In this document: piece after piece, positions 21,562 to 27,410 of the stretch
Layout: each line of letters starts with the position of its first letter
Numbering within the stretch: the first letter of the stretch is position 1
From: Ignavibacteria bacterium
Lineage (GTDB): Bacteria > Bacteroidota > Ignavibacteria > Tepidaquicellales > Tepidaquicellaceae
Length of the DNA: 34,365 nt
NCBI GenBank assembly: GCA_016929695.1
Contig: JAFGII010000120.1
Location: 1-34,365 of the forward strand
Direction of reading: 5' to 3'
The notes under the pieces: model-generated
What the model was told of the DNA's origin: nothing
What the model saw: the letters and a program-made list of their open reading frames with translations, nothing else
Databases searched by the model: none
Position numbers and translations under genes: made by a program

Positions 21562-22719
21562 TCAGTTCACCGAAACCTGCCTGCCCGCAAGTGCCGAAAT
21601 CACCATCTGCTTTTCACTGTACAACTTATCAACACAGCCATTATACAGTTCGCGAAGTGCAGTATCCGTGTATTCGTCAGCACCGGATTTATTCAACTGT
21701 ATGGCTTTAAGATAATCCAGCGAAGCATCATAAAATTTGTTCATCCCATTGTATATATCACCTCTGATTCTATAATACGATGCTTTCTCCGGCTTGATTT
21801 CGATTGCTCTGTTGATGTCATCAAGCGCCTTTTGATATTCTTTCGTTATTATGAACGCTTCGCTTCTGTATGCCCTGTACAGGTCATTATCTTCCGAAAG
21901 TATTACCGCATAAGTCATTTCGGATAAAACATCCCCGATGAACATGCACAGTTCAGTTTTTATCAAAGCACTAAGGAAATGGTATTCCCCGTCATCCGGA
22001 TTTAATTTTATTGCTTTTTCGATATATTTGAGTGCTTTCTCGTAATTCTGCTCGATGTAGTAAATATCCGCAAACATATAATAAACGTATGACTCCTTTT
22101 TCGTTATTTTTAATGCCTTCCTTAACTGCTTCAGTGCTTTACCGTGATTTCTTAACTTTTCTTTATATGTTATCGCCCTGATTATATATGTATCGGGCAG
22201 TTCCGGAAAGAATTGCTCCGCCTTGTAAAGGTACTTGAATAAATGGTAGAAATCACCCTCTATTCCGCTGATCATTCCAAGTTCGATGTTTGTATGTGCC
22301 AGCAGTATTTTATTGTCTGTCCCTTTTAAAAGTTTTTCGTAATATTGCTTTGCCGTTTCATAATCCTCCTTCATTTTATATGCAAAACCTGTTTTGTAAA
22401 ATACCTCCTTGTTGCCTGAATCCAGTTCGTATGCCTTTTTCAGATTATCAATCGCTTCATCGTAGTTAAAAAATATCATTAATTCCAGACATCCGAGGTC
22501 ATAATAGTTTTCAGCATTCAGCGGCTCTGCAATTATTAACCGCTTTGAAAAATATTTTGCCAGTTCGTAATTTCCTGAATTGTAAGATGCTTTCCGCGCA
22601 AGGTGCAGGAAATCTAAATTCGTCGGCTCAAAATCCAGTGCTTGCCGGCATAGATCAAGCGCAGTCTCATAATCTCCTTCTTCCATTTTTTTTCTTGCTT
22701 TCTCAGACAGGTCTTCCAT
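21562..22719 (-). CDS. Cytoplasmic tetratricopeptide-repeat (TPR) protein
   Basis: This 385-aa protein consists almost wholly of TPR helix pairs, about ten of them. Clear units include MEEGDYETALDLCRQALDFEP near the N-terminus, NYDEAIDNLKKAYELDSGN, DYETAKQYYEKLL, NYEKALKYIEKAIKLNPDD and YQKALDDINRAIEIKPEKA. There is no signal peptide, membrane segment or catalytic domain, so it is predicted to be a cytosolic scaffold. GGAA precedes the ATG by a short spacer. It lies downstream of, and on the same strand as, the ARPP-1 and CARF genes. A CAACGTTG palindrome lies about 130 nt upstream of its start, matching one upstream of the ARPP-1 gene. Partner unknown. Confidence 0.85.
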   Translation of the reverse strand: MEDLSEKARKKMEEGDYETALDLCRQALDFEPTNLDFLHLARKASYNSGNYELAKYFSKRLIIAEPLNAENYYDLGCLELMIFFNYDEAIDNLKKAYELDSGNKEVFYKTGFAYKMKEDYETAKQYYEKLLKGTDNKILLAHTNIELGMISGIEGDFYHLFKYLYKAEQFFPELPDTYIIRAITYKEKLRNHGKALKQLRKALKITKKESYVYYMFADIYYIEQNYEKALKYIEKAIKLNPDDGEYHFLSALIKTELCMFIGDVLSEMTYAVILSEDNDLYRAYRSEAFIITKEYQKALDDINRAIEIKPEKASYYRIRGDIYNGMNKFYDASLDYLKAIQLNKSGADEYTDTALRELYNGCVDKLYSEKQMVISALAGRQVSVN

Positions 22720-22848
22720 AACAGTTCCTTTTAAATTTATGAAATTGTTTATCTAATTACCGTACTTATTGGGATTAAACCCTCCACACAATACAGTAAA
22801 AATAATATACATTTTTTTTTGTGACTGAAAATTTCCACTGCATTACCG

Positions 22849-22856
22849 CAACGTTG
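22849..22856. promoter_or_regulatory. CAACGTTG palindrome upstream of the TPR gene
   Basis: A perfect 8-bp palindrome in the upstream gap of the TPR gene. In gene direction it reads ACAACGTTGC, the same ten bases found upstream of the ARPP-1 gene (23987-23994). I saw no third copy in the window. A shared operator is inferred. Confidence 0.4.
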
Positions 22857-22886
22857 TTAACCTTTCCCCGAAAATGTAAAAATTTT

Positions 22887-22940
22887 ACTCGTCCGACGAA
22901 CTTGTTCATCGGATGAGTATATCTGTATCCGCTATAATCC
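22887..22940. repeat. Dispersed CTCATCCGA hairpin plus tail, copy 2
   Basis: ACTCGTCCGA (22887-22896) pairs with TCGGATGAGT (22909-22918) through one G-T wobble. The loop CGAACTTGTTCA and the tail ATATCTGTATCCGC repeat those of the copy at 5086. This copy is the better-preserved hairpin. Confidence 0.78.
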
Positions 22941-23004
22941 GCTTAATTCATGTTTTACGCGCCTTATAGTTTATTTACAACTTTTCTATGACTAACTATT
23001 CATC

Positions 23005-23907
23005 CTATAGCCCCAGCGATGTCAGATGTATCAGATGTTCTTCATACATCAGTTCCAGCCCCGTAAATTCTTTTGTTTCAAATCTTCTCTCATTTCCGGC
23101 ACCCAGACTCTTGTGTATCGAAAATTCCATATTATCGTATTTATCGAAAAAGTCATTTGTCTTGTATTTCGCCTCTGCTTCAGATAATGGTTGTAATGAT
23201 TCTTTCAGATGATATGTCTCCATTGCAGCCGACTGCAGTATCTTCGGAAAGTATTCGCTGTATATGTCTTCCCTGTTGAATACATCAATGTTCAGTATCT
23301 TGTTCTTTACAAAAACTGCCGTTCCGTTTGCTTCGGGTTTAATTTCAAATCCTTTTACATATTCATCGAATTCTCCCCGTTTACCCTCGTAAATCGAATT
23401 TAAATCCGATGTCTTGGATGACATTCCGTGCATTGTTTCATAATCATTAACTTTGCTCCAGAGGATATTCTGGGCAGAATAAAACAACTTCCCTAATTCG
23501 AGATTTTTCTTTAAATGGTATGCTTTCTCTGACCTTAATTTTGACGGGGCTATGTGTTCTGAAGAATGAAATTTCGATGAAGAATATCTCCATCTCCCTG
23601 CCTCCACACAACTCACGGGAATGTTGATTTTGGTATTGGGCGCTATCAGCATTGATGTATTAATTACCCTGTTTTGTTTTGCTCCCTGCAGTATGTCGCC
23701 GTCCATGAAAAATATAAACTTGTCCGAAAGATTGATTACGAATAAATCGTTTACACTTCCTCCTTCGCTTACCTCTTTTACCTCCACGTAATTCTTTTTG
23801 ATTGCCTCTGTGGATGATACATATTCAAATGTGTTCATCAGTTCAGTCTGAAACTGAACTACTCCGAGTGCCTGATTTTTCTGAAAATCAAGAATTTTTA
23901 CCAGCAT
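23005..23907 (-). CDS. ARPP-1 family domain protein
   Basis: This 300-aa soluble protein shows the ARPP-1 (formerly DUF) core: FIFFMDGDILQGAKQNR with GAKQNR at 75-80, NTSMLIAPNTKINIPVSCVEAGRW with IPVSCVEAGRW at 96-106, a conserved S-E-x-x-A-x-x-x-L-R segment, a W-x-x-V helix, and a C-terminal FNREDIYSEYFPKILQSAAMET block. The family name refers to genomic association with ADP-ribosylglycohydrolase and rhodanese-phosphatase proteins in predicted conflict or stress systems; biochemical activity is not established. The ATG follows a good AAGGAG. It lies 167 nt downstream of the CARF gene on the same strand, with its own leader containing palindromes, so it may have a separate regulated promoter. 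Confidence 0.85.
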   Translation of the reverse strand: MLVKILDFQKNQALGVVQFQTELMNTFEYVSSTEAIKKNYVEVKEVSEGGSVNDLFVINLSDKFIFFMDGDILQGAKQNRVINTSMLIAPNTKINIPVSCVEAGRWRYSSSKFHSSEHIAPSKLRSEKAYHLKKNLELGKLFYSAQNILWSKVNDYETMHGMSSKTSDLNSIYEGKRGEFDEYVKGFEIKPEANGTAVFVKNKILNIDVFNREDIYSEYFPKILQSAAMETYHLKESLQPLSEAEAKYKTNDFFDKYDNMEFSIHKSLGAGNERRFETKEFTGLELMYEEHLIHLTSLGL

Positions 23908-23947
23908 ATAAACTCCTTTCCATTTTATTTTTTTAAATTTTTTTCTT

Positions 23948-24011
23948 ATACAAATATATACTTTTATACCCCTTTATAAATTTCTGCAACGTTGTGGAAA
24001 TATATTTGTAT
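23948..24011. promoter_or_regulatory. Palindrome-rich leader of the ARPP-1 gene
   Basis: An outer perfect 12-nt inverted repeat (ATACAAATATAT at 23948-23959, ATATATTTGTAT at 24000-24011) encloses an inner palindrome TTC..CAACGTTG..GAA centred at 23990/23991. It lies 41-104 nt upstream of the ARPP-1 start. In gene direction the nearer arm reads TATATTTG, which resembles the Bacteroidota -7 element TAnnTTTG. The arrangement suggests a dimeric regulator binding over or near a promoter; that is inference. Confidence 0.45.
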
Positions 24012-24074
24012 GATAAACCTTACTCTTATACTATTCTAACGGAAAAAGTTTCAGAAAAAATTAATATTTCCGGT

Positions 24075-25034
24075 TCATTTTATCAAATTGATTTTTTCTT
24101 TCGGAATGCCCAGACCGTAAGATTTCGAAAATCTGGGACCTGTTGATGTTATTTCGTAGTAAAGTCTCAGATTGGCGGGCAGCGGATGTTTTCTGATTTT
24201 TTTATTCAGTTTAGAAACGGTTGAGCGGAAATTGCCGACACTGATATTCTCGAATAACGACAGTTTTTTCTTCAATGCCCTTATATTGATGTCATAGGGT
24301 TTGTAACTCTCCTCGAAATATTCGATAATCATTTCGCAGAATTCCCTCGGCATTGTATAACCCTGCACTTTCAAATCACTATCATTTTTTAAAATCTTAT
24401 TCAAAAAATACCTGTAATAGCAGAATTCAAGCGGCGAGAATTTGATAAGATTATTGTTGATGTGAATTTCGCTTTTGCTAATATTTATTACAACTTCAGG
24501 ATAAAGACTTCTTCTGAGATTTTCATTTTCGGTCTGGAGAATTTTGATTTTCGGAAGATGAGCACCGAGTTTCACCTTTGAAATCGGCGGTTTTCCCGTT
24601 TCGGGTTCGTTGCTGCGGATTAGTTCCAGCGGAAATTCCCCCGATTCCGCTATCAGTATCCAGCAAGCCTGCATTGCGGGCGTTCCGGATGCAATTGCCG
24701 CAGTTATGTTAACATTTTCGGGATTGAAGTTTTTAATCAGAAATGAAAGGAGTTTCGGATATATTTCGTTGTGGTCAACCACATCATCGAGTTCAAAATA
24801 ATGGCGTCTGACTTTTCCCGCATATTTCTTATTTTCAATTTCATTTTTTACGTAACGTGAGATGAAATCGTAATTTATATCGGGTTTGTAATAAGAAGTC
24901 CATAACAGATTTACTTCGTCAAATTTTCTGTTTTTCAGAACGGTCAGTACCGCTCCGTCATTTTTGTAGTTGAGTTTTCCCGCATCGTTTGTTCCGATGA
25001 AAGAAATTAATACCGATTTTTTATCGTTTTCCAT
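24075..25034 (-). CDS. Stand-alone RtcR-type CARF domain protein with probable winged-helix C-terminus
   Basis: In this 319-aa soluble protein, residues about 7-165 form a Rossmann-like CARF domain close to the sensor half of RtcR. It opens VLISFIGTNDAGKL, has FDEVNLLWTS after strand 2, the acidic YFELDDVVDHNEIY, and the ligand-loop motif NITAAIASGTPAMQACW (SGTPAMQ at 116-122). CARF domains bind cyclic oligoadenylates or, in RtcR, RNA ends bearing 2',3'-cyclic phosphate. There is no AAA+ sigma54 activator domain and no nuclease domain. Instead residues about 185-319 read like a DNA-binding winged helix (LIKFSPLEFCYYRYFL, later RSTVSKLNKKIRKH, as in OmpR/SARP-type wHTH). It is probably a ligand-responsive transcription factor. 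No CRISPR or rtcBA genes lie in the window. An AAGGAG-like site precedes the ATG. Confidence 0.78.
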   Translation of the reverse strand: MENDKKSVLISFIGTNDAGKLNYKNDGAVLTVLKNRKFDEVNLLWTSYYKPDINYDFISRYVKNEIENKKYAGKVRRHYFELDDVVDHNEIYPKLLSFLIKNFNPENVNITAAIASGTPAMQACWILIAESGEFPLELIRSNEPETGKPPISKVKLGAHLPKIKILQTENENLRRSLYPEVVINISKSEIHINNNLIKFSPLEFCYYRYFLNKILKNDSDLKVQGYTMPREFCEMIIEYFEESYKPYDINIRALKKKLSLFENISVGNFRSTVSKLNKKIRKHPLPANLRLYYEITSTGPRFSKSYGLGIPKEKINLIK

Positions 25035-25322: not shown

Positions 25323-27410
25323 ATGGTAGAGATTATTAATCAGTTAAAAGAATTATCATACAACCTATACTGGTCTTTTAACAACGAATTCTTTTCAATT
25401 TTTGAGGAGATTAACAGGGGCTATTGGCGATGGAGTCAGAAAAATCCCGTTAAATTTTTAGCAACAATTAATCAGGAATATTTAATGGATGTTATAGAAA
25501 AGAGGAATTTACGGGTAAGGATTAATGCAATGTATAGAGATTTCAAGAAGTACATTAATGAGAAGGAAACTTATTTCAATAATAAATATTATACTTTTGA
25601 TTCTCCGAAAATATGCTATTTATCTGCCGAATACGGTATTGCAAAATGTCTGAAATTTTATTCCGGGGGACTTGGTACTCTGTCCGGTGACCATCTGAAG
25701 TCCGCATCGGATTTAGGTCTGCCGCTTGTTGCAGTAGGACTTGCTTATTCATTTGGATATATGCGGCAGTACATAAACAAAGATATGAGACAATCAGAAC
25801 TATATGAAACGAATGACTTCAATATGATGCCAATGACTTTACTGCTGGATGAAGATTACAGACCTTTAAAAATATGTTTAAATTTACCCGACAGGGAAGT
25901 ATATGCACAAATCTGGGAGTTGAAAATCGGACGCGTTAAATTATATTTACTCGATACTTTCGTGGATGAAAATAATGTTGAAGATAAAAGCATTACTGAT
26001 ATTCTGTACGGGGGCGGTTCAGAAAAGCGTATTCTTCAGGAAATTCTGCTTGGTATCGGCGGAATGCGAGTACTTGAATTACTTGGTATTGAAGCGAAAG
26101 CATTTCATATCAATGAAGGACATTCGGCTTTTCTGGTATTTGAAAGAATCAAGAATATAATGAATAAATTCAAAATCGAATTCGACGAGGCGAAAGATAT
26201 TTGCTATTATTCTAATATATTTACAACACATACTCCCGTTCCCGCAGGAATTGACATTTTTCCGAGATATCTGATGGAAAAATATTTCACTCATTATGCT
26301 GAAAATGAACTTGATGTCCCGTTCGACCGCCTGTTCCGTGAAGGCGATCTAAACAACAACGGGCACGATAAGTTCAATATGGCGATGCTGGCGATTAATA
26401 ATTCTAATTTCGTCAATGCCGTAAGTAAACTTCACGGCGTTATTGCAAGAAAAATGTGGTCTTTGCCTCCGGAACGCTCGCAGATTGCTTCTATCACTAA
26501 CGGCGTCCATATTAAGACCTATATGTCTATGCACTCGGAAAAATTGTATATAAAATATTTCGGAAAGGGATGGTTTAAAAATCAGAATGTCTGGAGTAGA
26601 GTGACTGAAATTCCGGAAGACGAAATTTGGAAGACAAGAAACAGGAACAGAAAATCACTTGTAAACTATGTCAGGGAACGAATTGCGGATAAATTAAAAC
26701 TGGTAAAAGAACCTGAAGAAAAAATTACGGATGTGGAAAACCTGCTTGATGAAAATGCGCTTACAATCGGATTTGCAAGACGCTTTGCTACGTATAAAAG
26801 AGGAAATCTGATTTTCAGAAATCCCGAACGGCTGAAAAAACTTATTACAAACACCGACAGAAAAATTCAGTTCATATTTTCAGGTAAAGCACATCCGCAG
26901 GATGAAGGCGGCAAGAATCTTATTGCTGAAATTATTTCTTATTCTGAAGATAAAAAATTCAAGAACAAACTTGTCTTTGTAGAGAATTATGATGTTGACG
27001 TGGCAAAATATTTAGTTTCGGGCTGCGATATCTGGCTGAATAATCCCCGCAGACCGCTGGAAGCATCGGGAACAAGCGGTATGAAAACTGTTGCGAACTT
27101 CGGTCTGAATTTTAGTATTCTTGACGGATGGTGGATTGAAGGACATTCAAAGGATTCCGGCTGGAGTATAAGCAGTCCTGAAAATTATGAGTCCCTCCCT
27201 CAGGAAGAAGTTGACAGAATCGAATCCGAATCGTTGTATGATATTCTTGAAAAGGAAATTATTCCGATGTTCTATAAACGAAATGACAAGAACGTTCCGG
27301 TTGAATGGATTAAGAAAGTTAGATCATCCGTCGGTTTGCTGGCTCCGGTTTTCAATACTGAAAGAATGGTGAAAGAATATAATGAATTGTTTTATATGAA
27401 AGTAAGGTAA
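25323..27410 (+). CDS. glgP: Alpha-glucan (glycogen) phosphorylase, GT35
   Basis: Predicted to release glucose-1-phosphate from glycogen or maltodextrin in the cytoplasm. The 695-aa protein belongs to the shorter, divergent phosphorylase group (TIGR02094 type). The N-terminal DUF3417-like start is NLYWSFNNEFFSIFEEI with YWRWSQKNPVKFL. The GT35 core has YLSAEYGIAKCLKFYSGGLG, AFHINEGHSAF, FTTHTPVPAGID and HGVIARKMW, with TNGVHIKTY shortly after. GFARRFATYKRG marks the C-terminal domain start. The PLP Lys588 lies in EASGTSGMKTVANFG. It is about 150 residues shorter than classical glycogen phosphorylases and lacks their N-terminal regulatory region, so allosteric control of the muscle type is not expected. 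The start at 25323 gives the conserved N-terminus intact. Confidence 0.93.
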   Translation: MVEIINQLKELSYNLYWSFNNEFFSIFEEINRGYWRWSQKNPVKFLATINQEYLMDVIEKRNLRVRINAMYRDFKKYINEKETYFNNKYYTFDSPKICYLSAEYGIAKCLKFYSGGLGTLSGDHLKSASDLGLPLVAVGLAYSFGYMRQYINKDMRQSELYETNDFNMMPMTLLLDEDYRPLKICLNLPDREVYAQIWELKIGRVKLYLLDTFVDENNVEDKSITDILYGGGSEKRILQEILLGIGGMRVLELLGIEAKAFHINEGHSAFLVFERIKNIMNKFKIEFDEAKDICYYSNIFTTHTPVPAGIDIFPRYLMEKYFTHYAENELDVPFDRLFREGDLNNNGHDKFNMAMLAINNSNFVNAVSKLHGVIARKMWSLPPERSQIASITNGVHIKTYMSMHSEKLYIKYFGKGWFKNQNVWSRVTEIPEDEIWKTRNRNRKSLVNYVRERIADKLKLVKEPEEKITDVENLLDENALTIGFARRFATYKRGNLIFRNPERLKKLITNTDRKIQFIFSGKAHPQDEGGKNLIAEIISYSEDKKFKNKLVFVENYDVDVAKYLVSGCDIWLNNPRRPLEASGTSGMKTVANFGLNFSILDGWWIEGHSKDSGWSISSPENYESLPQEEVDRIESESLYDILEKEIIPMFYKRNDKNVPVEWIKKVRSSVGLLAPVFNTERMVKEYNELFYMKVR

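Follow-up and report, generated by a model that had tools for sequence, protein, structure and literature searches.

A candidate ligand-gated CARF regulator and a predicted operator-promoter unit upstream of ARPP-1 and other interchangeable defence genes in Ignavibacteria

The DNA analysed here, referred to as the window, is a stretch of 34,365 nucleotides from an Ignavibacteria bacterium (assembly GCA_016929695.1, contig JAFGII010000120.1). Its minus strand carries genes for a CARF protein, an ARPP-1 protein and a TPR protein, and an earlier note on this DNA had suggested that a CARF transcription factor controls an ARPP-1/TPR response. The three open reading frames were confirmed where that note had placed them. 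Most of what is known of CARF proteins concerns effectors that respond to cyclic oligoadenylate. We propose, with a probability of about two in three, that the CARF protein of the window is instead a one-component, ligand-gated activator of interchangeable neighbouring defence genes, represented here by ARPP-1. A nucleotide or RNA end made in infection or RNA damage would bind the CARF dimer, the two C-terminal winged-helix domains would bind a 20-bp near-palindrome ending 22 nt upstream of a Bacteroidota −7 box, and the bound dimer would help RNA polymerase to start at this promoter. The promoter would drive adjoining cargo that varies by genome, namely ARPP-1 here and, elsewhere, type I restriction, reverse transcriptases, AAA/DUF3696 ATPases, DUF1016 nucleases or uncharacterised modules. 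Within a defence regulon of this kind, ARPP-1 would serve as one exchangeable effector. DNA binding, dimerisation, activation over repression, the ligand and a defence role of ARPP-1 are what we infer here.

What the computation shows directly is the regulator family with its cargo, and the site with its spacing and position upstream of ARPP-1. The 20-bp near-palindrome TTGCCGCAACGTTGCGGAAA is present in the window locus, where the gap between the CARF and ARPP-1 genes is 167 nt. The unit on the minus strand consists of the predicted operator TTTCCACAACGTTGCAGAAA (23981..24000), a 22-nt spacer and the predicted −7 box TATATTTG (23951..23958), which is followed by 43 nt to the ATG of ARPP-1. 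In unrelated loci, the core CAACGTTG recurs in the stretch that separates CARF from the gene that follows it. A 20-base site model was trained on six loci (L008, L078, L079, L080, L087 and L093), with no −7 information used, and was scored against 13015 background windows from 61 loci without a CARF gene; these gene-less loci replaced a first background that included genuine sites of the same operons. The window site scored 23.1 bits (p 0.00031 against the CARF-less loci), and p<0.002 was reached in 12 of 20 non-seed loci, the window included. Further sites were found in L032, L033, L011 and L085/L167, with a weaker one in L090. In total, the site lies upstream of the cargo in 23 of 26 readable loci, one of these sites being weak. 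Upstream of the CARF gene itself, no palindrome common to the loci was found, and the site model gave none there at p<0.01.

The spacing between site and box proved particularly regular. Among 43 site readings from 27 locus records, each read on both strands (two of the records, L085 and L167, are separate stretches of a single genome), the box TAnnTTT[GA] starts 22 nt after the site in 21 readings and 23 nt after it in 2; the remaining box offsets of 0, 16, 45 and 47 were each found in one reading. The main sigma factor of the phylum is described as having TAnnTTTG for its −7 box, at −12 to −5 (PMC7366714, PMC9723704), and the site would therefore cover about −54 to −35. No −33 motif was seen in the spacer or promoter, and it is this, together with the fixed spacing, that favours activation. 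The possibility that the site forms an RNA hairpin or terminator was rejected: no terminator was found, and the fixed promoter spacing speaks against this reading. On the plus strand at 24001-24012, a −7-like TATATTTG lies immediately next to the operator (offset 0) and points towards the end of the CARF gene.

The site was also sought across 391 genomes of the class with the expression TTGCNRCAAYRTTGC-N27-TANNTTTR, one mismatch being allowed. There were 33 matches in 27 genomes, 21 of them on the CARF contig near CARF, and the operator and box of the window are the only such match in its genome. Matches occurred in 17/24 genomes with the CARF-wHTH (winged helix-turn-helix) protein and in 10/367 others (Fisher 1e-17, from a two-by-two table made by hand), a contrast that is partly circular because the pattern was derived from some of these loci. 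Without the −7 box, the 17-base pattern has no value as a marker alone, since it occurs in 207/391 genomes. Two genomes, G012 and G014, stand outside this circularity: neither is a training locus, and in both the site is missing after CARF and is found directly upstream of ARPP-1, past the intervening genes. In G191, one canonical copy precedes a 189aa-157aa-ARPP-1 group and another copy lies upstream of hsdR, where the expression TAnnTTT[GA] places the box at 16 nt. Ten genomes hold both CARF and ARPP-1, and the site is found at ARPP-1 or its group in five (the window genome G000, G012, G014, G191 and G023); that of G023 is weak (11.7 bits), its box starts 22 nt after it and CARF is on a separate contig. 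Further copies were observed upstream of HARE-HTH-like genes (MTLHEEI start) at the ends of type I restriction operons (L084, 10125 onward; L081, 1-352). A strong site, TTGCCGCAATATTGCCGAAA, lies off the CARF contig in G262 (contig C57, 814-863; L202) and is a possible distant regulon member.

The CARF protein itself (319 aa; 24075..25034, minus strand) was assigned from its open reading frame, a Pfam match, alignment and an AlphaFold model. Residues 54-145 match the RtcR family PF06956 (E 1.9e-9), as do all 13 family members examined, and Pfam gave no match to an AAA+ or nuclease family, in agreement with the earlier description of an RtcR-like half lacking both. The protein reached 31 bits against the curated RtcR model NF038308 (CARF-AAA+-HTH; cut-off 650) and is thus not an RtcR in that sense. 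The AlphaFold model, built on a 13-row alignment, has a pLDDT of 85.4 but a pTM of 0.54, so that the individual domains are confident and their mutual arrangement is not. The sensor domain (residues ~1-160; 24555..25034, minus strand) carries GTNDAG and SGTPAMQ motifs and has the Rossmann-like CARF fold: model residues 5-163 match Csm6 of E. italicus (6tug; Z 17.6, root mean square deviation 2.7, 153 aligned), and other CARF proteins match too. The strand-4 motif is SGTP[AS]M in all 13 relatives and has no adjoining K/R. The closest relative with a named record is a 61%-identical CARF protein on an Ignavibacteria contig from a metagenome-assembled genome.

The C-terminal domain (residues ~178-319; 24075..24503, minus strand) gave no convincing Pfam match among 13 members, Trans_reg_C included. 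It was found to be shared with the C terminus of NE0113 CARF proteins (hhalign prob 99.2, E 2.3e-19, 140 columns), and the profiles match too. TIGR02584, the model of the NE0113-type CARF domain, spans only residues 5-171 of an NE0113 protein and leaves this C terminus outside; it gave no match to the window protein at E<=1. The window protein is, then, an RtcR-type CARF sensor with an NE0113-type C-terminal domain, without an AAA+ or nuclease part. In the model, the C-terminal elements run as strands, helices and a terminal hairpin, an order that is winged-helix-like, and alignment to the OmpR family was weak (prob 33, E 0.00046; two controls gave E 0.37 and 0.61). Both fit a putative winged helix, and the C-terminal half, which the earlier note had expected to match a DNA-binding fold, does not refute that note. 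Csa3 (2wte) aligns across both parts of the model, but with a root mean square deviation of 18.

For ARPP-1 (300 aa; 23005..23907, minus strand), the predicted cargo and effector, the identification in the earlier note was confirmed: the protein matches PF20208 over its full length (residues 5-296; E 1.2e-81, 274.8 bits, cut-off 27), and Q78, C100, E102 and G104-R105-W106 are invariant in 15/15 sequences, which includes the Cys and Gln expected of the family. The model is confident (pLDDT 91.4, pTM 0.91). A fold search of PDB gave no Foldseek match under E 0.001, the best match being VIA (Z 4.2), and this lack of a clear match is no demonstration of a new fold. ARPP-1 occurs in 82/391 class genomes, far more often than CARF-wHTH. 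The two genes are same-strand neighbours in G000, G012 (CARF, a sigma70_r2 protein, ARPP-1 and a protein resembling vWA by eye) and G014 (CARF, a 368-aa protein, a 132-aa protein and ARPP-1). In G191, ARPP-1 is the last gene of a ten-gene run that begins with CARF and DUF1016 and continues with type I restriction, with gaps of <=95 nt. The CARF and ARPP-1 part of the neighbourhood described in the earlier note recurs in other genera (G012, G014 and G191), so that this check did not refute the note. Control of ARPP-1 by a CARF transcription factor is a well-supported prediction.

ARPP-1 also has other neighbours. It lies divergent from adjoining WYL regulators in L039, L176 and L178, and the gene after it often encodes a 315-aa partner that belongs to no known family (L039, 7918-9864; L176, 7901-10754; L178, 113-2988). 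Within type III-like CRISPR loci, it was found with NE0113 CARF proteins and cas1 (L164, 8355-10507; L165, 6460-10983). The 368-aa family lies upstream of ARPP-1 in L033 (12398-13504), L037 (1035-2141) and L038 (2244-3410), and the C terminus of this protein resembles that of CARF (E 3.6e-4). Palindromes like the site lie ahead of ARPP-1 in these loci, even where CARF is missing. An ExoX-like tail (PF20600) is present at the C terminus of some ARPP-1 proteins (L037, 3191-4297) but not of the one in the window.

The CARF gene is present in 5/29 genomes of the family, and its profile matched 59/391 class genomes at 1e-10. These comprise 24 with RtcR-type CARF-wHTH, counting G127 and G331 where it is found only on truncated contigs, 6 in a divergent clade (f14) and 29 that match by one half only. 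Outside f14 there are 30 loci, named contigs included, and 26 are readable because L094, L095, L096 and L104 end inside the gene. Downstream of CARF, type I restriction was found in 5 loci (L081, L082, L084, L085 and L086), a reverse transcriptase in 3 (L008, L089 and L092, the last fused to HisKin-conflict), an AAA/DUF3696 ATPase in 4 (L077, L088, L091 and L105), a DUF1016/YhcG nuclease in 2 (L010 and L011) and additionally in L085, a GHKL ATPase in 1 (L083), a TPR and SIR2_2 gene group in 1 (L078) and ARPP-1 in 3 (the window, L032 and L033). A three-gene module that is kinase-/receiver-like by eye follows in 5 loci (L079, L080, L087, L090 and L093; for example, L079 6215-9418, L087 5887-9395 and L093 10531-13698), and its scanned members gave no Pfam match to kinase or receiver domains. 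Nothing defence-like lies downstream in L034 and L106. In a PADLOC scan at 1e-15, with the proteins on the other side of CARF as control, 64 downstream proteins matched 184 families, while 51 other-side proteins matched 10, with one member each. The CARF gene thus adjoins diverse defence systems, as a defence regulator with a BrxR-like role would. In the CARF tree, ARPP-1 sits on three branches, and cargo and host family are shuffled. The window CARF protein belongs to a wide family with swapped cargo and is not part of a one-off module. Two scans of viral contigs gave no relatives of CARF and ARPP-1.

Besides the partial circularity of the genome-wide contrast, several observations weigh against the proposed activator. 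No site was found in three of the 26 loci (L034, L010 and L106), and none at ARPP-1 in five of the ten two-gene genomes (G137, G206, G238, G310 and G336). Similar sites do occur upstream of ARPP-1 in the CARF-less genomes G018, G019 and G024 (22.2, 15.4 and 16.9 bits), where they are followed by AT-rich stretches that miss the strict −7 expression. The OmpR-type match on which the winged helix leans is weak, and a PDB sequence search with the CARF profile gave one irrelevant match alone (E 0.89). Finally, the f14 clade carries other cargo. Its members in L099, L101, L102 and L103 are vertically kept relatives adjoining secreted-type proteins (by eye), which is perhaps a non-defence use of the same regulator, and the loci L098, L101 and L102 hold partial sites.

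The chief alternative, although an unlikely one, keeps the regulator and the site and makes the protein a ligand-released repressor in the manner of the WYL regulators BrxR and CapW. CapW is reportedly a repressor of defence genes. BrxR, also a WYL regulator of defence genes, represses according to PMC9122601, and a site at about −54 to −35 could equally block RNA polymerase. However, 23 of 27 box readings give a spacing of 22-23 nt, a regularity that exceeds what a repressor would need, and the absence of a visible −33 motif from the spacer also argues for an activator. A less probable alternative holds that the site is bound by another conserved protein, such as the wHTH-like 368-aa protein or a sigma factor, with CARF as a mere neighbour or modulator. 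This would accommodate the sites of G018, G019 and G024, where the presence at the ARPP-1 locus of a 368-aa protein, or of a gene judged sigma-like by eye, makes a second site-binding protein possible, and it fits the likeness between the two C termini. The CARF protein, however, is the sole gene common to the 26 loci, and a 368-aa or sigma-like gene beside CARF was seen only in G012 and G014. It is most improbable that CARF and ARPP-1 are neighbours by chance or merely co-inherited: G023 and five further genomes have them on separate contigs, and the much greater frequency of ARPP-1 would favour coincidence, but they share a strand in G000, G012 and G014 and one gene run in G191, each with a promoter site, and ARPP-1 is spread over three branches of the CARF tree.

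For the ligand-gated activator, the lack of a basic residue after SGTP suggests RtcR-like sensing of 2',3'-cyclic-phosphate RNA. RNA ends are favoured as the signal because the basic residue is missing, as it mostly is in RtcR proteins (PMC4012209), because of the RtcR likeness itself, because tRNA halves are given as the RtcR ligand (PMC7790460) and because rtcB is in the genome. The earlier statement that rtcB is missing applies to the window, where none was noted; the genome has it on contig C96 (152 and 52 bits). The Csm6 fold match leaves room for a cyclic oligoadenylate signal. The Cas10/Csm1 model gave a 26.4-bit match alone, under its cut-off of 170, so no Csm1 above cut-off is in the genome, and other cyclases were not searched for. 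For a bolder formulation the odds are about even: one-component CARF activators, forming a class not yet described, would use a single conserved operator-promoter unit to command swappable anti-phage arsenals across Bacteroidota and relatives, and would be alarmed by RNA ends (2',3'-cyclic phosphate) that infection or damage creates.

The TPR protein (385 aa; 21562..22719, minus strand; TPR_2 E 2.5e-22 over five stretches) is a TPR protein as described earlier, and its membership of the module is unproven. The loci compared gave one weak 23%-identity match alone, and the gene was rejected as a conserved member since no close homologue is found in related loci. The proposed control of an ARPP-1/TPR response is retained, as a prediction, for ARPP-1 and is not supported for the TPR part, which has the core palindrome but neither conservation nor the spacing. 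ACAACGTTGC, first spotted by eye upstream of both the ARPP-1 and TPR genes, has three exact copies genome-wide, two of them in this window; the second (22848..22857, minus strand) is an uncertain member lying 129 nt upstream of the TPR start in a gap of 285 nt. A 10-mer common to both intergenic regions is unremarkable (43% of shuffles), and only its GC content (0.34%) and palindromic core (0.02%) were rare in shuffles, the 10-mer having been spotted by eye beforehand. The palindrome on the TPR side has a −7-like box at 38 nt, not at the fixed spacing, and is therefore not canonical. On the other side of CARF, the gene upstream of it, at 25323, runs divergently and encodes carbohydrate phosphorylase domains (Pfam).

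If the bolder formulation is right, new defence genes could be found without homology by scanning for the operator-promoter unit, starting with ARPP-1, the three-gene kinase/receiver-like modules and HARE-HTH/AAA genes. The switching of non-CRISPR defence genes would become directly accessible through a CARF transcription factor whose operator is defined, its reporter-ready promoter would offer a route to the regulator's signal, and the little-known protein ARPP-1 would be placed under inducible control beside known restriction systems.

Several known systems are close to this one. ARPP-1 of the ARG-centred systems belongs to the same Pfam family, and its conserved Cys and Gln are present in the window protein; the neighbours given in the accessible part of PMC9503650 are ARG genes, HIRAN, a WYL transcription factor and a deacetylase, with no CARF regulator listed there. 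BrxR and CapW are likewise portable sensor-wHTH regulators at diverse defence systems (PMC9122601), with a WYL sensor in place of CARF and action as repressors, and the portion of that paper available reports no operator-promoter unit common to unrelated cargo. Csa3, the archaeal CRISPR regulator, likewise joins CARF to a wHTH without an effector; it binds cyclic tetraadenylate (PMC8699464), whereas the window family lacks the basic residue after SGTP and adjoins other defence genes. NE0113 proteins (TIGR02584, type III CRISPR loci) have the homologous C-terminal domain, and two such loci also hold ARPP-1, but the CARF part of the window protein matches RtcR and the loci of its family are, as far as read, not CRISPR loci. 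CARF regulators of defence were predicted previously (PMC4012209), and RtcR-like CARF-AAA+ proteins are described at the head of restriction and CoCoNuT operons (PMC11090510). RtcR and the RtcR-like CARF-AAA+-HTH activators of the Rtc operon, restriction-modification and CoCoNuT superoperons likewise have an RtcR-type CARF, with the CARF gene first and restriction genes next (PMC4012209, PMC11090510). Unlike these, the window protein has no AAA+ domain, and hence no sigma-54 mechanism; its C-terminal domain is of NE0113 type, and the promoter has a sigma-A type −7 box. What is new within the searchable literature is the AAA-less RtcR-CARF protein with an NE0113-type C terminus as a portable regulator, together with its operator-promoter unit and the placing of ARPP-1 under it.

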